Virus record (IMG/VR): IMGVR_UViG_3300005613_003220
Coordinates: 1-23,654 of that record
Length of the DNA: 23,654 nucleotides
From: a virus
Reading direction: 5' to 3' (one strand)
Shown piece after piece: positions 1 through 21,622 of this stretch. The notes beneath the pieces are model-generated. The model saw only the letters and a program-made list of their open reading frames with translations, had not been told where the DNA came from and ran no database searches. The position numbers and the translations under genes are program-made. Numbering within the stretch: the first letter of the stretch is position 1; every line of letters starts with the position of its first letter.

Positions 1-1469
1 AATTGTTTATCTATAGCTTTGCTGATATCGTGAGATTTTGGAAAACCAGAATTGCCAGTAATAAAAATTTTGCCTTTTCTTCTAGCAACAAAAGCACCAG
101 TTGGTACAGAGACACACCACATTCTACCTTTGTACCAAATAGGACTTATGGTTGCCAAAGTGGTAGAGGGAATCCCGAGCCTTCGTATTTTTTGTGTGCT
201 GTATTGCTGGAAAATAGCATCAGATTTTCTATCCGATTGTCGTTTGGGTCGTGATTGATATGATGAACTACTTCTGAGCGCTTCAACATTCTCCCCAAAT
301 GTTGAGCCATAATCAACCGATGTTCCATTATATAACCGTCTTTCCGAGCCATCGACTTGAACTCTTCTGGACAACGAACATACTTGATGGGTGCATAATT
401 TCCATGCTTTCGGAAATATGTCACACCCCCCTTCCAAGCAGGGTTGTCCGATCCAGACATTTTTTCTCTGCAACTGCGTAGACTTTCGGTTGTCCAACCA
501 GCTCTGCCTTTGTGGCCATGCTTCTTCCACTCCTCGCCTCGAATAATACCATTGCAATGACTGGAGCAGAACGAAACTTTTACTTTTTTGACCCAAGCAT
601 CTGGTCTCCATACTTGTTTTCCACAGACTGGACATGTTATCAATGTCATTTTTCGTTGTTCTGGAGGTTTGCGGTTTCGTGGTTTGTGGAGGGCTTCCGA
701 AATACATTTTTTTGAGCAGTACTTGTTTCTGTCTGCTTGCATTCTCGTCTGGCACATAAAAGGACTTGAGCAAATCTGACAGATTTTCCAGAATGGGTAC
801 CTTCTCTTGGCGTTTGCATGTTTCGGGGTAGATGAATACCTCTCTTCCATTGCGTTCAACAATGCAACGATGATTTCTGGAGACAATTTGCTCTGTAAGA
901 TCAGATTTAATTCTGTATGCGGTATCTTCGTAATCATAAACAAAAACTCGATTAACTGGAAGAAACTCAAAAGTTCCTTTATTTAGAGTGTAGGCCATAA
1001 CCATAGACCCACTACTAATAGTATCGGAACTTTTCCAGCCATCTATAGTCAAAATTTCAGTATCTTCTGATAAACAACCGTAAGTCCAAGCTAAAGGACT
1101 AGCCACACCTATTGAATCTCTTATCTCCCAACCAGCATCTTCAATTGCACACATCATTCTATGGAATGTTCTGGTTCCACCGCAGGCAAGTAAAAACGCC
1201 CCTGGTTTTGCTACCCTTAGCATTTCTTCCCATAACTTAACATCAAATGTAATAGCTGTTCCATCCCAAAGCTTGCCGCAGAATCCAGTGCTGTGTCGCT
1301 GAAACGCTCCGTCTTTTCCATATTTAGCAGGAGCTGATCCCTCTTTACCAAATCTCTTTACAATGCTGGTAAGGTTATATGGTGGGTCAGTTACAACAGC
1401 ATCAAAGGTATTGTCATCAAACCTCTTCATTGCCTCTATACAATCAGAGTGGATAACCTCAGCCTCCAT
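1..1469 (-). CDS. Partial DNA methyltransferase interrupted by an intein (3' end beyond window)
   Basis: This reading frame is open from an ATG at 1469 to the window edge. The ATG at 1469 is preferred to the adjacent ATG at 1472 because AGGAGG lies 4 nt upstream of it. Residues 1-131 are the N-terminal part of a SAM-dependent DNA methyltransferase, with the catalytic motif DPPY at residues 28-31 and a typical segment VAKPGAFLLACGG at about 86-98. After WTYG an intein of 342 residues begins (1076 to 51). It is followed by the resumed host sequence SGFPKSHDISKAID, the usual continuation of W-YG-SGFPKS-type phage methylases. The SAM-binding motif is not seen and presumably lies beyond the edge. 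It starts 25 nt after the preceding small gene. The product would methylate a base in phage or host DNA after splicing; the target is unknown. Catalytic class is inferred from the motif only. Confidence 0.88.
   Translation of the reverse strand, partial: MEAEVIHSDCIEAMKRFDDNTFDAVVTDPPYNLTSIVKRFGKEGSAPAKYGKDGAFQRHSTGFCGKLWDGTAITFDVKLWEEMLRVAKPGAFLLACGGTRTFHRMMCAIEDAGWEIRDSIGVASPLAWTYGCLSEDTEILTIDGWKSSDTISSGSMVMAYTLNKGTFEFLPVNRVFVYDYEDTAYRIKSDLTEQIVSRNHRCIVERNGREVFIYPETCKRQEKVPILENLSDLLKSFYVPDENASRQKQVLLKKMYFGSPPQTTKPQTSRTTKNDIDNMSSLWKTSMETRCLGQKSKSFVLLQSLQWYYSRRGVEEAWPQRQSWLDNRKSTQLQRKNVWIGQPCLEGGCDIFPKAWKLCTHQVCSLSRRVQVDGSERRLYNGTSVDYGSTFGENVEALRSSSSYQSRPKRQSDRKSDAIFQQYSTQKIRRLGIPSTTLATISPIWYKGRMWCVSVPTGAFVARRKGKIFITGNSGFPKSHDISKAIDKQ
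51..1076 (-). mobile_element. Intein in the methyltransferase, with an out-of-frame HNH gene nested inside
   Basis: The intein frame encodes 342 residues with no stop. Splicing block A begins CLSEDTEILTIDGW at residue 1. The block B region is around residues 61-73 with His69 in SRNH. The C-terminal block runs over residues 309-342 (WYKGRMWCVSVPTGAFVA, then KIFITGN), followed by Ser as the first C-extein residue. The penultimate residue is Gly instead of the usual His. The middle, about residues 105-305, is Ser/Gln/Arg-rich and does not look like a folded domain. In the +1 frame the same DNA encodes a well-formed HNH endonuclease. No endonuclease motif is seen in the intein's own frame. The identification rests on both terminal splicing blocks and on the precise joining of the two host halves. 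Confidence 0.85.
146..970 (-). CDS. HNH homing endonuclease encoded in the +1 frame inside the intein
   Basis: The open frame is 274 residues and lies wholly within the intein-coding DNA. From the TTG at 970, two Cys4 zinc-ribbon-like units appear: C64-x2-C67 with C85-x3-C89, and C113-x2-C116 with C135-x3-C139. These are followed by a segment with SGSDNPAWKGG, as found in nuclease-associated modules of homing enzymes, then a classical HNH core (MEHRLIMAQHLGR, VVHHINHDPNDNR at about 234-246, ENL). It ends at a TAA at 146-148. The TTG is preceded by AAAGGA 4 nt upstream; the RNA ligase in this window has a comparable TTG start. ATGs at 937 and 850 are alternatives, and the domain proper begins only near residue 58, so the first 40 residues may be untranslated overlap with the intein's N-terminal block. 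It would be expected to cleave intein-less methyltransferase alleles and drive spread of the intein. Confidence 0.8.
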   Translation of the reverse strand: MSFFQLIEFLFMITKIPHTELNLILQSKLSPEIIVALLNAMEERYSSTPKHANAKRRYPFWKICQICSSPFMCQTRMQADRNKYCSKKCISEALHKPRNRKPPEQRKMTLITCPVCGKQVWRPDAWVKKVKVSFCSSHCNGIIRGEEWKKHGHKGRAGWTTESLRSCREKMSGSDNPAWKGGVTYFRKHGNYAPIKYVRCPEEFKSMARKDGYIMEHRLIMAQHLGRMLKRSEVVHHINHDPNDNRIENLMLFSSNTAHKKYEGSGFPLPLWQP

Positions 1470-1493
1470 CATCCCTCCTTTCTTCTATAACTG

Positions 1494-3532: not shown

Positions 3533-4354
3533 TCACATAATTTGTTCAAGATACTGAGGCATAATCACGTTCCACGTATTATCGCTGCACAGTGCTCCTA
3601 CAAAAACAACACTCCCCTTACTTTCATTCCGTAAACCAGACATAAGAAGATCAATAACAGTATCTTCAGACACGGAAGGATAATTTGAGACCACTTGTTG
3701 AGTCTTTAGAGCCGCCTGTACCAAAGAATTACGTTGCTTAGGGCCTTCCCAGAGTTGATCTGATCTACCACGAGAGGCCATAAATTCTGAGCAAAAGGCT
3801 TTAGCTATTTTCTTAGCTAAAGCCTTTGTTGCATCATCTATGCTGAGTAAATCTTCATCAGTAGCATCTTTCCACCAAGGGGCTCTATTGTCTTTATCAA
3901 ATCGTATAAGAGCACGTAAAAAAGTAATCAATGTAGAGTATGAGTAATCATGTCCATTACAGTTATGCTTTCTGGATTCACAAGCACTAAAGTAAAGACC
4001 CATTTCATGTTGAACTGCTTTGAATAACTCTTTTGACATCTGCCTGAGTTCAGTCAAAACAGAAGTAGTTGTACTCCCAACTTTCTGAGACCTGACTTTG
4101 ATATTCAATTGGTTCAGTTTTGAAATATGGTTATCCCACTCTTCTATGATCTTCTGCTCTGTCCCAGATGGTATTACAGCCCTTCGAGTTTCAACCTTTC
4201 GCTTTTCTGCTCTAATAACATCTTTACTATCCAGAAGTATGTTGCGCTTCCCTCCTTCCTGGATACGTAATTCTACACCATTCTTTTGTAGAACTCCCTT
4301 TTCAAGCAGCTCTTCAGCAGTTTGTCGAGTAATAGTTATTACTAAGAATGGCAT
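3533..4354 (-). CDS. Hypothetical protein upstream of the helicase
   Basis: I do not recognise this 273-residue protein. The start is placed at the ATG at 4354; the frame extends to a TTG at 4384, inside the end of the preceding gene, but without a better binding site. The N-terminal 60 residues look like a small alpha/beta unit (FLVITITRQTAEELLEKGV), followed by a charged helical middle. A segment around residues 120-155 has several Cys and His (FSACESRKHNCNGHDYSYS) that could bind a metal. The C-terminus looks globular. Its position directly before the helicase makes a helicase loader or primase-associated role possible, but nothing in the sequence proves it. The coding region contains a perfect 14-bp inverted repeat at 3794-3827. 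Confidence 0.7.
   Translation of the reverse strand: MPFLVITITRQTAEELLEKGVLQKNGVELRIQEGGKRNILLDSKDVIRAEKRKVETRRAVIPSGTEQKIIEEWDNHISKLNQLNIKVRSQKVGSTTTSVLTELRQMSKELFKAVQHEMGLYFSACESRKHNCNGHDYSYSTLITFLRALIRFDKDNRAPWWKDATDEDLLSIDDATKALAKKIAKAFCSEFMASRGRSDQLWEGPKQRNSLVQAALKTQQVVSNYPSVSEDTVIDLLMSGLRNESKGSVVFVGALCSDNTWNVIMPQYLEQIM
3794..3827. repeat. Perfect 14-bp inverted repeat (hairpin) inside a coding sequence
   Basis: The arms are AAAGGCTTTAGCTA (3794-3807) and TAGCTAAAGCCTTT (3814-3827), with a 6-nt loop. In the minus-strand transcript the hairpin is followed by UUUUGCUC, so the U-tract is short and partly within the stem. It encodes part of an Ala/Lys helix in the hypothetical gene. A weak attenuator, an RNase processing site or coincidence from repeated Ala-Lys codons are all possible. 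Confidence 0.6.
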
Positions 4355-4380
4355 AATGTCTTCAAAACATCCACGAAAAG

Positions 4381-5658
4381 TCAAGGAGAAACTGTATCAT
4401 TTCTCCGATTTTCCCCCAGATTAAATGGAACCTCATTGAAAACACCATGTTTTTTGTGGATTAAAAAAACTGTCTGAGAGGGGTTAGCAAATCGTCCAGC
4501 AGCCCCATCATACTCTGAGGCCCCCGCAAGACACCCATTCACAAACATCTCTGGGAAGGGCCTGACTGGCACATGCCAGTGGCCTACGAGCATGTAATCA
4601 AACCTGTCTCCCATTTGCTGACGTTTCCATGCTTCTCTTCCCTTTTTCCTTTGCCAGCCATACCAAGGAAGCCCCATCCATGCCCTAACATTATCACCAT
4701 GTTCGATGAGAACCCGCCACCCTTCAACCTCCATGATATATTGTATAGATTTAGGACGATTGAATGAAATTGAGGAGTGCTTGGCAAGTGCTGTTTCAGC
4801 AATATGGTAGACTACATAGTTCCAATTACGTTCTCCTCTTTGCTTACAAGGCTTTTTCCTATCCAAACGACCATGATTATCTGCTGTTACACACTCACAT
4901 CGAACATTTGAGAAGGATTGAGATAGTTTTGAAATGAGTTCAGCAGCTAGATCCCCCGCCTTAGCTGCTGCTACTGGTGGAGGAAATTCATTTGTTCTAA
5001 TGAACTCATCATGAATTTCTCCTGATACCATGTCCCCAAGAAGGGTCACTACAAGATTGTCAATTTTATAGCCTTTTCGTTGTGTATCTATATAATTCAA
5101 GAATGCTGGCATATAGATATCAAACAGTCTACTTCGTGCAACCTCATAATTATAGATATTATAACCTTCAGTTTCTTCAGGGTCAATCACTTCTCCTATA
5201 TGCCAATCACCAAAAGCAGCAACTGCTGTAACAGATGGAGTCGTTTTTGACTTTGTCCACACAAACTTAGGCCACGGTGCAGTAGCTTTTATTGATTCAA
5301 GAAGTATTGTATCCATCTCTGCACGAGCGCCTAGGCGCTCCCTTAGTATATCCATCTGTCTACTGAGAAGCTTATTTTCAGCTCGAAGGTAGGCAAGCTG
5401 GTCCTCCGTTGTGGGGTCTGTTGATTGCTCCTCAACCTTTGATTCCTCACATAATTGTGTAGGCCCTACTACTTGCTCCTTCAGTTTGGTTAAATTGAAA
5501 TCATGTCTAAGACACAAATGCCTCAATGACATAACAGACCTAGTATAACCAATACCCTTACGAATTTGAGCCCAAGTGGCTTTTGGGTTATTTTGCAGAA
5601 AGTCAAATAATAGTTTCTTTACCTGCTCCCATTGAGTTTCTATAGAATCGTTTGGCAT
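4381..5658 (-). CDS. Calcineurin-like metallophosphoesterase with N-terminal HTH-like region
   Basis: This 425-residue protein starts at an ATG behind AGGA. Residues about 10-60 form a short helical, HTH-like region (NNPKATWAQIRKGIGYTRSV), and about 85-115 a Glu/Leu/Arg coiled-coil linker. The phosphoesterase domain follows with the metal-binding series in order: GDWHIG at 150-155, LLGDMVSGEIHDE at 207-219, ADNHGR at 259-264 (where GNHD/E is usual), IEHGDN at 318-323 and VGHWHV at 358-363. The fold hydrolyses phosphoesters, often nucleic acid or nucleotides. The DNA-binding-like N-terminus suggests a nuclease acting on DNA, but this is inference. It is separate from the SbcD-like nuclease at 9403-10353 and differs from it by its N-terminal extension. 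A GC-rich 16-bp palindrome at 5325-5340 falls in the linker. Confidence 0.82.
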   Translation of the reverse strand: MPNDSIETQWEQVKKLLFDFLQNNPKATWAQIRKGIGYTRSVMSLRHLCLRHDFNLTKLKEQVVGPTQLCEESKVEEQSTDPTTEDQLAYLRAENKLLSRQMDILRERLGARAEMDTILLESIKATAPWPKFVWTKSKTTPSVTAVAAFGDWHIGEVIDPEETEGYNIYNYEVARSRLFDIYMPAFLNYIDTQRKGYKIDNLVVTLLGDMVSGEIHDEFIRTNEFPPPVAAAKAGDLAAELISKLSQSFSNVRCECVTADNHGRLDRKKPCKQRGERNWNYVVYHIAETALAKHSSISFNRPKSIQYIMEVEGWRVLIEHGDNVRAWMGLPWYGWQRKKGREAWKRQQMGDRFDYMLVGHWHVPVRPFPEMFVNGCLAGASEYDGAAGRFANPSQTVFLIHKKHGVFNEVPFNLGENRRNDTVSP

Positions 5659-11258: not shown

Positions 11259-13799
11259 CTACTCAAGCAGTGAGCCAGAAAGATGATTACTTTTTGAGTA
11301 TTCCCAAGGCATATTAGCTACTCTATCAGTAGCCAATTTAAGATATTCAGTAGATAAATCAAGACCAATACCAGTGCGCCCAAGGTCATTAGCAGCCTTA
11401 ACTGTGGTCCCACTTCCGACGAATGGATCTAAAACAATGCAAGGCCGAGTGTCTTGTTTATCATATTGTGGCTTCAAATCACTCCACCGCCTATGCCAGT
11501 CAATAAGTTTGACTTCAAACTCTGCCAACTTTCGTTGTTTTTCTTCTTCTGTATCATCCTTGTTTTCATGGTATACAGGCACATCTTCAATAATAGGAAG
11601 ACCATAGCAGGCACAACTAGGACGCCAACCGAAAGTCTTACCACCAAAAACAGGCTCATGTCCTTCTTTACGTTGTGCCTGTCTTGCTAAACTAATACGA
11701 TTACCAGTGGTCCCTTTCTCATAAAGAGACCCTGTTGTAGAATCATGAGAGGCAGGCAGTTTTTCAACTACCCTTCTCCAAGGTGCTCCACATTTTGGAC
11801 ACGCTCCTTTTTCTGATGTAGTAGCAATTATTGCTTTTTGTGGTATCTCAGGAGGGAAGACAGCAAAATGGGCCTCTTTATATCCTTTTGGTGATATTGT
11901 CCACACATTTCTCCAATTTCTCGTTCCACTGTACTCAGCATACTCATTTGGTCTTGCATTTACTCCTTCTTCAAGAAGTCGTTCTTTACTGCCTTTTGCT
12001 GCTTTTGTTCCAACAGGATATATTCCTTTTTCTCTTGCAGCAAACCAATCATAATAATAGTGTTGTGATTTAGTAAGCATGAAGATCATTTCATAACCAC
12101 TTGTTGGCCTGTCTCTACATGAATTATGGGTTATGAGGCCATCACCAATAAGAAACTGACCACCATCAACCTCAATGTCTATCATTTCACGTTCATTATC
12201 TAATTCGCGCCGAGTGCGTGGGGGTACTTGGTACACTCCCGGCATTCCAGATTTTGTTTTCCGCCGAGTAATATATGGAGTCCATAAACTGTGTGAGTAA
12301 TACGTATTGCCTGTTCGTTCGTCAGTTACAGTATGAGAACCCTTAGATGTGATAATCCCAAGACTACTTGCTAAAGTTGATATGTCATCTCTTAGACGAC
12401 GTGATGCAGAGGCTATTCTCCATCCTTGATTCCTTGATTTTTCTTTAGGTCTCCAACCATCGCCTTCAACATATCCATCCAAAAGCCCTTGTCGAAATGT
12501 TTCAGGGACATTAAGGAGTAATTCAATGTTCAGTGCCTTTGTCCGTACCTTCCCACTAACAAAGCTATCTATAGTACGGGTAAACCACTCTGCGCTAACT
12601 CTTAAGTCTCGTGATGTCCCAACAGCAGCTAATTTGTCTGAAAATTTAAGCCCAAACTCTTTACCGTAGTCCCGAATTCTCTCAGCAAAATCATTCTCAT
12701 TTGCGCCTAGAGTTAGTTTGATTCCCCAACCCCTAACATCAGAATGTCCTCCCTCAGCTACATATGCTCCTATCAGATAACCCATTTTATAATCTAAAGA
12801 GCGTCCTAGCCACTCTGTTATTGTAGGTGTTAAGTATTTCTGAATTGGACAATAAAGCAAATAATCTGCGTAACCCTCATGTCGAATGTCAGCCGCTCGT
12901 TCTAGTCGTACTCGTTTGCGCCGCCTGTCCGAAGAAATTGGAAAACGATGATCAAGGGAGCAGATTATTTTTTCTACTTTACTAGCACTAAAATATAATG
13001 CTCGCTTAGTTGTACTCCAAATACGCTTGATAGAAACCCAACCACTTGGCCCTAAAATCTCTGGCCTTTTAGGAAGCATAGCTAATTCAGCCAACGAAAC
13101 TCGTGATATCCACCCATTTTGTCGTATAAAAACTCGCGTTTTTGGGTCTAAACATTCTGGCATGACTGGACCACTATATGTAGGACAAAAACTTAAACCT
13201 TTTGCCCATGTAATTGCTGACCTTAAGTACCATCCATCTGCTTGAAGTGCAAAAGCACATCTCCAAGGAACTCCACATAAATCTTTAGGCTTGAGGCCCG
13301 AGAGACCTTTTGATGTTAGACACTGCCCTTGACTTCCCGCTACGCCATAATTGCCAGTATGGGCCTTATTGTTACCTCCGCCAGCATAACTATCTCCAAG
13401 TACAATAAAGAAAACCCCATCATCTCTTAATACTCGTTTGACTTCTTGACCAATTTGAACTATATGATCAACAAACATATCTAATTGAGGTTCAAGACCT
13501 AATGCCCCTTTCCAGGCGTTGCAGAGGGTGCAAAAAAAGCCTGAACATCTACGTTCTTGTTGTTTACGTTTTGTTTCATAAGACGGCTCGTTAGTTCCTG
13601 TACTAAGCCCTGCTCCATTCACATTGCCTCGAAATAGTACTTTGTTTCCCCACACATGCTCGCACTCAGGCTCGCCTCCCCAAACTCGTTCTTGATTTCC
13701 TACATAGTTTCTTAGACCCCAATAGGGCGGAGATGTGACACAACATTGGACTATACCATCTTCTAAAGGAATCATAGATGCATCTGCTTGGATTAACAC
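11259..13799 (-). CDS. DNA methyltransferase (N4/N6 type) interrupted by a LAGLIDADG intein
   Basis: The 846-residue precursor has an extein of 502 residues. The N-extein (1-215) holds the catalytic motif TSPPYWGLRNY near residue 23 and a Cys-rich insertion (CEHVW, FFCTLC). The C-extein (560-846) has SCRDRPTSGYEMIFMLTKS, a CPKCGAPW zinc knuckle and the SAM-binding motif DPFVGSGTTV at 791-800. Motif IV preceding motif I marks a beta-class DNA methylase. An intein interrupts it between Glu215 and Ser560. The start is a GTG sharing a base with the TAG of the preceding gene. The target sequence is unknown. It may protect phage DNA from host restriction. Confidence 0.92.
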   Translation of the reverse strand: MLIQADASMIPLEDGIVQCCVTSPPYWGLRNYVGNQERVWGGEPECEHVWGNKVLFRGNVNGAGLSTGTNEPSYETKRKQQERRCSGFFCTLCNAWKGALGLEPQLDMFVDHIVQIGQEVKRVLRDDGVFFIVLGDSYAGGGNNKAHTGNYGVAGSQGQCLTSKGLSGLKPKDLCGVPWRCAFALQADGWYLRSAITWAKGLSFCPTYSGPVMPECLDPKTRVFIRQNGWISRVSLAELAMLPKRPEILGPSGWVSIKRIWSTTKRALYFSASKVEKIICSLDHRFPISSDRRRKRVRLERAADIRHEGYADYLLYCPIQKYLTPTITEWLGRSLDYKMGYLIGAYVAEGGHSDVRGWGIKLTLGANENDFAERIRDYGKEFGLKFSDKLAAVGTSRDLRVSAEWFTRTIDSFVSGKVRTKALNIELLLNVPETFRQGLLDGYVEGDGWRPKEKSRNQGWRIASASRRLRDDISTLASSLGIITSKGSHTVTDERTGNTYYSHSLWTPYITRRKTKSGMPGVYQVPPRTRRELDNEREMIDIEVDGGQFLIGDGLITHNSCRDRPTSGYEMIFMLTKSQHYYYDWFAAREKGIYPVGTKAAKGSKERLLEEGVNARPNEYAEYSGTRNWRNVWTISPKGYKEAHFAVFPPEIPQKAIIATTSEKGACPKCGAPWRRVVEKLPASHDSTTGSLYEKGTTGNRISLARQAQRKEGHEPVFGGKTFGWRPSCACYGLPIIEDVPVYHENKDDTEEEKQRKLAEFEVKLIDWHRRWSDLKPQYDKQDTRPCIVLDPFVGSGTTVKAANDLGRTGIGLDLSTEYLKLATDRVANMPWEYSKSNHLSGSLLE
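12123..13154 (-). mobile_element. LAGLIDADG intein within the second methyltransferase
   Basis: The intein spans precursor residues 216-559 (344 residues). It begins CLDPKTRVFIRQNGW. The block B region, around IICSLDHRFPISS, includes the conserved His. Two LAGLIDADG-type helices are present, MGYLIGAYVAEGG at 339-351 and RQGLLDGYVEGDG at 436-448. It ends FLIGDGLITHN with the canonical His-Asn, followed by Ser560 as the +1 nucleophile. It therefore appears to be a complete, probably active intein with an in-frame homing endonuclease. Insertion falls in the PMPE/S-RDRPT motif of the methylase, a conserved site. Confidence 0.92.
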
Positions 13800-19165: not shown

Positions 19166-21622
19166 TTAATCTCCTTTTATCGTTTCCATTTCATACCAAT
19201 TAGGACCGGCCTTCCACTCTACTTCCATAGGTAGAATCTGCCAATCATGCTTTGGCCTAGCTATTGAGTCATTAACAAGTAAGAGCACTCGTCTCCTTTC
19301 ACTACGCACTGCATCTAATCCGACACTATCATGAATTTCAAATATAATCTTTGTTTTCATACCAGCTTGTTGAAGTGCTCTGTCTGCCTCCACAATTCCT
19401 TCTAGAACCAAATGAAAGCTTGTTCCTTGCACTGGAGTATTTATAATTTTCTTGCGGTCTAATGGGGCATGTCTCCTGAACCCAAAAGGCATTTCAACAT
19501 ATCCATGCTTCCAATAGAAGTCTTCAGTTGCAATCTGCCACTCCTTAATTCCCCTGTACCCTTTCCAGAACTGACGCTCAACTCTTTGAACATGTGTTGG
19601 ATCAAGGTTCAAACTTCTAGCTGCTGATTTATAGTATGAACCATAAATAATTGCAAAAACAAAGAACTGTTTTGCATAGAATCTTTGATTCTTAGTAACC
19701 CGCTCCTCTGGTATTTCATAAAGGATAGAGGCCCAAAGTCTGTGAATGTCTATCCCAGATTGTATCTGTCTTAAAAGCTTTTTATCGCGTGATAGCATTG
19801 CAATTACACGTAATTCTGCACCAGTTACGTCACACTCTAGTATTTCCCCATAAGGGGGGTCAGTAGAGGGGATAAAACACTTCCTGATGGCCGCTTGCGC
19901 GTCATCACGAGTAGGCTGGTTTTGGAAATTAGGCTTCTCACTGCTGGAGCGATATGTTTCAGTTGTATTCATTGAAAATGTAGGATGAAGCCTACCATTA
20001 GTTGCCTCTAAAATAGGCTTGAGATAGGTACGTAAAACTTTATCGCATTTGCGGTACTGCAAAATCAAGTCTACAATCTCGTGCCACATTTTATCATCAG
20101 TAGAAGATTTAATGGCTTCCAAAGCAATGATGTCTACTTTCATCTTGCCTGTAGGTGTAGTAGGGATTAGACTCTTATCAAGACCAGGAATCTTTGATAG
20201 TATAAACCTAAGCTGATCATCAGAGCCTGGGTTGAATCGTTTTGCTTTAGACATCTCCCATTCAATGATTGGCTGTTTGTTTAACAACCTCTTTGTGGCT
20301 TCTTTTTGTTGATGCTCTTGATCTTTTTGCTGTCTACGAGCCTCTTCAATATCAACCCTTACACCTCTGGACTCCATATGAGACAAAACTGGGAGTGCTG
20401 AATGTACAAAGTCTACGGCTTTCTGCAAATTCTTATTTTCAGGCTTCTTTAGTTCTTCTTGTTGATGCTCAAATAACATATATGTAGCACGAGCATCCAA
20501 CATATTGTATTTGTATAATTGTTGAGCATCTGCTTCAGTAATTTTTGCCCTATCAATCATCCCTTTATGGCTCTCACCAGTAAGACAAAACGTCTGAAAG
20601 TCTAGGCTTGTGGTCTTTGGTCGCTCATCCAAGATATGAGCAACATTCATAGTACACCAAGTTTGCGGGGTTACATCAATGTCTAATGCCTGTTCAGACC
20701 ACAAGCGCTCAAAGTTTATGTTGTGGGCAATCTTGAAATAGTGCTTAAATTCCCACTTCTGGAGTATAGTACACATAAACGATTGTAGATCCTTGCTCCC
20801 TTTTACTGGTATGCATACCTCACCCTTTTTTCCTGCAAGACCTACACACACCAATTCTGCTTCAGAGTTGAACGGACTTAAAGATGTTGCCTCATAATCC
20901 CATACAACGTGCTGTGGGTGCAGCCCATGAAACGTCTTCCAAGGATCCTTAGAAATGAGCGGATAAAGAAGCCCGAGCTTCGGCATTTCAGGAAAACCAT
21001 TGTCCAGTGCCTGTACTGCCTTTCTCAAATCACGCTGGAATACATCTCTGATTTCAGGAAACTTTTCATTCCCATCATCATCCTCACATATACGTTTGAT
21101 ATAAGAAGGGTGAAAATGACAAGAAACCCAACAATTGTGCTCATGTGAAGGAACTAAATAACCACGCATTTGAGAAATACTAAACCCAAATGGTGGCTGT
21201 AGTATTGCCTCAACAGCATGTTTACCAAAAGCCATTATAAGTTGCGGTTTGTATTCTTCAATCTGCTTTAGTAGTCTTGGGCGACAATGGTCAGCAACTA
21301 TACTTCCAGGCCATGCATTACCTGCTGGACGACACTGAATCACATTTGTAGCCCAACAATCTCTATCTAAATTGATGTTCTCCATTCTGAGACAAGTACG
21401 TAAAAGCTGACCCGCTGATCCTACTAGTGGGCATCCTTTTTCGTCTTCAGTTCTACCAGGAGCCTCAGCTACAATAAGAATCTTCTTTTCACCCCTACCA
21501 GAAGGATTCATCTTCTTTGTCTTATTTGGAAGTTTGTTAAGAGGGCAACCAACACACCCTTGACCTACCCCCATATTTGACCACATCTTATCTGTAGGTG
21601 CTTCAACGAGATTCTTAGACAA
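19166..21622 (-). CDS. polA: Uracil-DNA glycosylase / 3'-5' exonuclease / family A DNA polymerase fusion
   Basis: The protein has 818 residues in three parts. Residues 1-200 are a family 4-type uracil-DNA glycosylase: Cys23, Cys26, Cys97 and Cys113 fit the Fe-S cluster spacing, with VAEAPG at 51-56, GCPLVGSAGQLL at 63-74 and HPSY at 171-174. Residues 235-390 are a DnaQ-like exonuclease with WDYEAT (Asp242, Glu244), HNINFERL (Glu where Asp is usual) and YNMLDA (Asp376). The polymerase has motif A ECDVTGAELRV with Asp598, motif B RFYAKQFFVFAIIYG at 647-661, and motif C IHDSVG with Asp765 (HDS in place of HDE). It would be the replicative polymerase, with uracil removal linked to synthesis. A 5' nuclease domain is absent. 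Confidence 0.9.
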   Translation of the reverse strand: MSKNLVEAPTDKMWSNMGVGQGCVGCPLNKLPNKTKKMNPSGRGEKKILIVAEAPGRTEDEKGCPLVGSAGQLLRTCLRMENINLDRDCWATNVIQCRPAGNAWPGSIVADHCRPRLLKQIEEYKPQLIMAFGKHAVEAILQPPFGFSISQMRGYLVPSHEHNCWVSCHFHPSYIKRICEDDDGNEKFPEIRDVFQRDLRKAVQALDNGFPEMPKLGLLYPLISKDPWKTFHGLHPQHVVWDYEATSLSPFNSEAELVCVGLAGKKGEVCIPVKGSKDLQSFMCTILQKWEFKHYFKIAHNINFERLWSEQALDIDVTPQTWCTMNVAHILDERPKTTSLDFQTFCLTGESHKGMIDRAKITEADAQQLYKYNMLDARATYMLFEHQQEELKKPENKNLQKAVDFVHSALPVLSHMESRGVRVDIEEARRQQKDQEHQQKEATKRLLNKQPIIEWEMSKAKRFNPGSDDQLRFILSKIPGLDKSLIPTTPTGKMKVDIIALEAIKSSTDDKMWHEIVDLILQYRKCDKVLRTYLKPILEATNGRLHPTFSMNTTETYRSSSEKPNFQNQPTRDDAQAAIRKCFIPSTDPPYGEILECDVTGAELRVIAMLSRDKKLLRQIQSGIDIHRLWASILYEIPEERVTKNQRFYAKQFFVFAIIYGSYYKSAARSLNLDPTHVQRVERQFWKGYRGIKEWQIATEDFYWKHGYVEMPFGFRRHAPLDRKKIINTPVQGTSFHLVLEGIVEADRALQQAGMKTKIIFEIHDSVGLDAVRSERRRVLLLVNDSIARPKHDWQILPMEVEWKAGPNWYEMETIKGD

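Follow-up and report, generated by a model that had tools for sequence, protein, structure and literature searches.

A phage methyltransferase intein with a putative HNH homing endonuclease gene in its +1 frame

Inteins are usually described as one chain, with the splicing and endonuclease domains in a shared frame. An IMG/VR virus record of 23,654 bases (the whole stretch of DNA analysed, here called the window) raises the question of whether the two functions can be carried by two overlapping genes. The gene of interest runs off the left window edge. The original prediction, made from the sequence alone, was that a complete HNH gene lies out of frame inside an intein that stays open, at 51-1076.

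Two genes on the same DNA

On the minus strand, the methyltransferase/intein frame has no stop between an ATG at 1472 and the window edge (ORF 3-1472). The first 132 codons of this ORF gave tblastn matches to annotated phage methylases and to LR756508.1, and the Pfam model N6_N4_Mtase matched the N-extein with an E-value of 6.7e-05, slightly under the gathering cut-off. An insertion of 342 residues, from Cys C1 (1076) to Asn N342 (51), lies between ..AWTYG and SGFPKS. These data confirmed the out-of-frame HNH gene inside an open intein, and the proposed flanks, WTYG and SGFPKS, were also borne out. The features of both frames are listed in Table 1.

The insertion meets the intein criterion of a nucleophile at position 1, a block B His, a terminal Asn and a +1 Ser, the last being the Ser of SGFPKS. 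C1, H69, C321, T340, G341 and N342 were invariant among 27 aligned inteins. A penultimate His is usual in inteins but not universal; here it is replaced by the invariant Gly341, and LAGLIDADG inteins at the same site also have Gly before the last Asn. No Pfam or NCBIfam intein model matched the window intein sequence alone, which was recognised only by the family profile and by structure. AlphaFold predicted a Hint fold formed by the two ends of the intein (residues 1-106 and 303-342), with a pLDDT mostly >85 in the N-terminal region and of 88-97 in the C-terminal region. Solved inteins were the top Foldseek matches of this model (6zgq, E 1.9e-5, prob 1.00), so that the Hint criterion was met by both methods. 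Residues 128-299 had a pLDDT <50 and are predicted to be disordered, in agreement with the earlier view that the intein-frame product of the shared part has no endonuclease fold.

In the +1 frame, the same DNA holds an ORF that extends from stop to stop over 982-146, with a listed TTG at 970. The two Cys4 units, NPAWKGG segment and HNH core attributed to this frame were all recovered. HNH_3 matched with a Pfam E-value of about 1.6e-11 to 1.7e-11, above the gathering score in the window, and the presence of an HNH core with conserved catalytic residues meets the criterion for an HNH homing endonuclease. The AlphaFold model of the protein (mean pLDDT 86.7) consists of two N-terminal helices, the two Cys4 units and the HNH core. 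Its best VIA-align match was I-HmuI (PDB 1U3E; Z 5.6), a modest score that agrees with the HNH_3 assignment. I-HmuI shares the HNH core but is encoded by a phage group I intron, not by an intein, and has other flanking domains. Plain Foldseek of the HNH model gave no significant match, and the HNH alignment profile found no match among solved structures.

Table 1. Features of the methyltransferase/intein frame and of the putative HNH gene in the window
Feature	Positions	Strand	Support or remark
N-extein: N-terminal part of a phage N6/N4-type DNA methyltransferase, ending ..LAWTYG	1077..1472	-	Pfam, tblastn
Intein N-terminal splicing region, residues 1-106 (block A CLSEDTEIL; block B TEQIVSRNH)	759..1076	-	
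Dual-coding stretch: HNH codons 1-60 (two predicted helices, first zinc strand) over intein block B and the following strands	758..937	-	
HNH homing endonuclease gene (putative), +1 frame, 263 aa, most likely from ATG 937 to stop 148-146	146..937	-	
HNH protein zinc unit 1 (C53, C56, C74, C78)	704..781	-	4 Cys invariant in 29 aligned HNH proteins
Intein-frame linker, residues 107-302, DNA shared with the HNH gene in the other frame	171..758	-	
HNH protein zinc unit 2 (C102, C105, C124, C128)	554..634	-	4 Cys invariant in 29 aligned HNH proteins
NPAWKGG segment and HNH core	194..445	-	H225, N238, H248 invariant; I-HmuI structural match over residues 169-256
Intein C-terminal splicing region, residues 303-342 (WCVSVPTGAFVARRKGKIFITGN), block F Cys321, terminal Asn342	51..170	-	
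C-extein start (SGFPKSHDISKAIDKQ), cut by the contig edge	3..50	-	ORF exits the window

A second, ordinary intein is also present in the window. It comprises 344 residues (12123-13154, minus strand; ..MPE^CLDPKTRVF ... LITHN^SCRDRP), has an in-frame LAGLIDADG endonuclease and sits inside a second methyltransferase (11259-13799). The two methyltransferase inteins of this phage fragment thus differ in how their endonuclease is arranged. The ordinary one served as an internal control and had 27 and 37 stops in its other frames.

Relatives of the HNH gene and of the intein

The uncultured 484-kb phage LR756508.1 gave overlapping matches to the intein frame and to the HNH frame. In this phage, 783 codons without a stop take the methyltransferase-intein frame through to the end of the methyltransferase; the intein occupies the corresponding site (..VSG^SGFPKS), and the HNH, also in +1, shares 47% identity with the window's. 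When viral contigs were then searched with the HNH alignment alone, 75 loci were obtained. At 73 of them the HNH has the same phase and the host frame is without stops in a long ORF (415-1191 aa), whereas the third frame contains 3-24 stops; GC content ranges over 0.34-0.72. All 73 host ORFs belong to the same methyltransferase family. The two exceptions are a free-standing HNH (L082, 11 stops in the host frame) and an HNH antisense to a methyltransferase (L038, 16 stops). Stops in the intein frame of homologues would have spoken against the prediction, but they were found only in these two of the 75 HNH relatives. The HNH at L038:2980-3699 is a close relative in an orientation unlike all others, and the methyltransferase sense frame there has a nearby stop.

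The 73 loci fall into two classes. Class 1, in which the HNH is borne by an intein, comprises 42 of them and, with the window and LR756508.1, 44 loci. In the other 31 (class 2, ShiLan-like), the HNH is inserted directly, slightly downstream of SGFPKS, and no intein motifs are present. The sister set of direct insertions, counted together with Cupriavidus necator chromosome 2, consists of L043, L046-L050, L052, L055-L059, L061-L066, L069-L081, L088 and L089; the same HNH is again in +1 and the host frame is open without an intein, an arrangement that resembles the ShiLan domain (described below) in a different phase. Eight further loci were found in bacterial genomes, including a class 2 case on chromosome 2 of Cupriavidus necator.

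A separate search with the N-intein collected inteins regardless of endonuclease type. It yielded 78 distinct complete inteins at the site, 55 with the HNH and 23 without. A classical intein has its endonuclease in the same frame and chain; this criterion was not met by the HNH inteins, since the HNH was in +1 in 55/55 and in frame in 0/55. The 23 HNH-less inteins mostly carry an in-frame LAGLIDADG endonuclease, a type known from mycobacteriophages (LAGLIDADG_3 was above the cut-off in L135 and just under it in L157), and one is a 140-aa mini-intein (L148). An HNH in frame would likewise have counted against the prediction, and no such homologue was found among the HNH relatives or the inteins at the site. 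All the examples of HNH inteins come from metagenomic contigs or MAGs. As judged by comparison of sequences, the two-in-one arrangement is maintained and is not a sequencing slip, because it recurs in all 55 distinct HNH-bearing inteins. One variant HNH, at L042:2560-3612, has several extra cysteine-rich repeats; its intein is 427 aa long and the intein frame is still open.

Constraint, start signals and stop avoidance

The conservation of each frame was compared with simulations that preserved only the protein of the other frame, using 36 class 1 loci. The simulations assume saturated synonymous sites, an assumption supported by the near-background middle of the element. The two ends of the HNH gene showed host-frame conservation far over expectation, with z 15-58 across the first ~60 codons and z 10-14 across the last ~13. 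Over the ~190 codons between them it was near the HNH-only expectation (z about 0-5), suggesting that the middle of the intein is a linker that mainly needs to have no stops. The linker thus appears to be constrained almost only in this respect. Upstream of the window codons MITK, conservation of the +1 frame was near background except in one bin, and stops occurred at about the chance rate. From MITK on, conservation jumped (z 13-54) and 0 stops were seen against 78 expected.

The point at which +1 conservation switches on, with stops at the chance rate upstream, indicates that the HNH gene starts at ATG 937. The gene had been predicted to occupy 146-970; its end stands, but the comparative data favour 937-146 over 970-146 as the most likely extent. 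A start at the aligned downstream ATG 850 (MEERY) was dropped, as +1-frame conservation reaches up to 937. With the start at 937 and host-frame conservation this strong, the first ~60 HNH codons are constrained in both frames, and both frames of this dual-coding stretch are conserved beyond simulations retaining only the other. The original prediction held that the HNH frame is constrained and the intein-frame product is not. This applies to the shared middle, where conservation is about that expected from the HNH alone, but overlooks the double constraint on the first ~60 HNH codons.

An ATG lies 49 (or 51) codons ahead of the W of zinc unit 1 in roughly half of the loci (~22-25 of those aligned). 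The anti-Shine-Dalgarno energy at this conserved ATG was below that at other +1 ATGs (p 1.4e-4) and modestly below a host-synonymous control (p 0.016); both p values are optimistic because the loci are related. Contrary to expectation, a Shine-Dalgarno site is not universal. Strong Shine-Dalgarno-like sites precede the conserved ATG in L042, L024, L030, L017 and L041, but the site at ATG 937 of the window is weak and no better than the host-synonymous control. In L019 and L039, a +1-frame stop lies one codon ahead of the conserved ATG; in L017, L024, L029 and L042 such a stop is found within 3-6 codons. Internal initiation is the best reading for the family; for the window copy it is an inference.

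Another possible explanation is that ribosomes undergo programmed +1 frameshifting from the intein frame, which would give a fusion of N-extein, N-intein and HNH besides the full-length precursor. The +1 phase of the HNH is compatible with this, as is the lack of an ATG at the conserved start position in about half of the loci. Against it, +1-frame conservation starts at the conserved ATG, stops lie just upstream of this ATG in six loci, and several of the loci with such stops are among those with strong Shine-Dalgarno-like sites. No conserved slippery motif was seen, although this was judged by eye only. Frameshifting is not excluded, but we regard it as unlikely compared to internal initiation.

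A spliced RNA within the intein, such as an intron containing the HNH region, would be in keeping with the common occurrence of HNH genes in phage group I introns. For a group I or II intron, Rfam gave no match at E <= 1 for the window or, at the gathering thresholds, for 12 relatives, although such an absence is not proof. In addition, the host frame is open throughout the HNH region, and the intein-frame ends of this region are conserved splicing-domain sequence. We regard an RNA intron as very improbable. For a single contig, a decayed ordinary intein whose formerly in-frame HNH was displaced by two indels or assembly errors would suffice, but 55 distinct inteins and LR756508.1 share the phase, both open frames and the invariant zinc Cys and HNH residues, and no in-frame HNH relative was found. 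Sequencing indels or decay are ruled out for the family by these many independent homologues, and we give this explanation almost no weight.

The open intein frame could also be a functionless by-product of codon bias in the HNH gene, since long open alternative frames are frequent in high-GC phages. A null model was used in which the HNH protein was fixed and synonymous codons were resampled from the HNH's own usage. For the window, ~17 intein-frame stops were expected over 234 codons, and the exact probability of no intein-frame stop in 263 codons was 2.7e-10; it fell to 7e-19 when codon usage was taken from the other genes of the window. The earlier claim that the second frame is open beyond chance was therefore upheld, but the figure of 2 in a million given for it was too mild once the HNH protein is taken as given. 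Over the intein class, 10.7 host-frame stops were expected per locus, or 470 in 44 loci, and 0 were seen. Codon bias alone is ruled out by this resampling and has next to no credibility: the frame stays open across the whole GC range of the relatives, carries splicing motifs and a predicted Hint fold, and contains stops in the free-standing L082 and the antisense L038.

In the +1 phase, the only source of host-frame stops is T + AA/AG/GA spanning an HNH codon boundary, which can always be avoided. Unavoidable host-frame stops numbered 0 in +1 for 36/36 HNH proteins, compared to a mean of 2.1 in +2. A reason for the +1 phase is suggested by this: this phase would be favoured since a synonymous change at the third base of an HNH codon is enough to remove any stop that it creates in the intein frame.

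A proposed mobile element and its relation to known systems

We consider it quite probable that the element is a mobile intein and that its homing endonuclease, instead of being an intein domain, is encoded by a separate gene overprinted in +1 of the intein's endonuclease slot, although splicing, expression and cutting are all inferred. The likeliest reading is that the HNH acts as a homing endonuclease with its own translation start and that the intein removes itself by splicing; here too, translation of the HNH, splicing and cutting remain inferences. In the proposed mechanism, translation of the long frame would give a methyltransferase and intein precursor from which 342 aa are spliced out, and a second initiation inside the N-intein would give a free 263-aa zinc/HNH protein. 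This protein would cut intein-less methyltransferase genes near the SGFPKS codons, and repair of the cut allele would copy the whole element in.

Mobility predicts a patchy distribution and a history unlike that of the host gene. When a query spanning the site was used, 77 of the 80 closest methyltransferases had no intein. Of 19 supported splits in the extein tree, the HNH tree shares only 1, which fits a mobile element. The criterion was met, with moderate strength given the short alignments. A natural deletion is seen at L091:2080-2900, where the HNH core is lost and the gene is cut to the zinc units, but a 199-aa intein and the methyltransferase frames are intact. This is the pattern expected if splicing of the host protein is retained while the nuclease decays.

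We also lean, with less confidence, towards regarding these elements as a distinct and widespread type of mobile intein, defined by an internally initiated +1 overprinted endonuclease, a linker shaped by the avoidance of stops and ~60 dual codons. It may have originated by collaborative homing, in which an intein without an endonuclease would have captured a free HNH gene that targeted the methyltransferase site where this intein lay.

Phage methylases with an HNH out of frame have been described before. The ShiLan domain is a stop-free, non-splicing insertion of phage methylases with an out-of-frame HNH, and the same paper notes a second case, Pacc40 (Arsenault, Gosselin, Gogarten; PMC11855218). 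The window element and ShiLan share the broad methylase family, a hidden zinc-motif HNH, an open host frame and a patchy mobile distribution. In contrast to ShiLan, which has no splicing domain and another insertion site, the window element has a real-looking enclosing intein and lies before SGFPKS. The HNH of ShiLan and Mantra is in the third frame (+2) and that of the window element in +1, so that the ShiLan criteria (no splicing domain, own site, third frame) are not met. Leaderless initiation was proposed for the ShiLan HNH as no RBS was seen (PMC11855218), whereas several relatives of the window element have Shine-Dalgarno-like start signals. The LAGLIDADG inteins of Lilac, Atcoo and Dorothy (PMC9957025) sit at the same point and have almost the same splicing ends (WC..VPTGAFVARR.G..FITGN^SGFPKS), but their endonuclease is in frame and forms one chain with the intein.

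Genes nested within another gene in a different frame are known from phages, for example phiX174 E in D and lambda Rz1 in Rz. As proposed for the window element, a complete gene is internally initiated in another frame of a host gene, but E and Rz1 are not mobile elements and do not lie within a protein-splicing element. Split inteins can have a free-standing endonuclease gene between their halves, also apart from the splicing domains; there the host ORF is broken and splicing occurs in trans, whereas the ORF of the window element is unbroken and splicing would be in cis. No report of an out-of-frame endonuclease inside an intein was found in the searchable literature, which did not include a preprint from the group that described ShiLan, "Actinobacteriophage Inteins ... 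Non-Canonical Architecture" (bioRxiv 10.1101/2025.01.02.630785), that could contain related cases.

Since the two functions are split into two overlapping genes, the nuclease dosage could be set apart from host-protein synthesis and splicing. The family offers a clean natural example of long gene overlap, whose many independent homologues allow the constraint on each frame to be measured by codon. It also forms a link between inteins and the non-splicing insertions of phage methylases that hide an HNH. The predicted disordered, stop-free linker should make such inteins natural mini-intein scaffolds. Annotation pipelines that keep one ORF per locus will miss such nucleases.

Two further arrangements of coding sequence were observed. 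One methyltransferase gene, in L152, holds an intein with a +1 HNH (3826-4512) and, downstream, a second HNH in +2 (4985-5554), which amounts to two hidden nucleases in one ORF. Elsewhere in the window, a single minus-strand ORF (19166-21622) encodes a uracil-DNA-glycosylase-superfamily domain and, after it, DNA polymerase A (Pfam UDG 7e-20, DNA_pol_A 1.4e-63).
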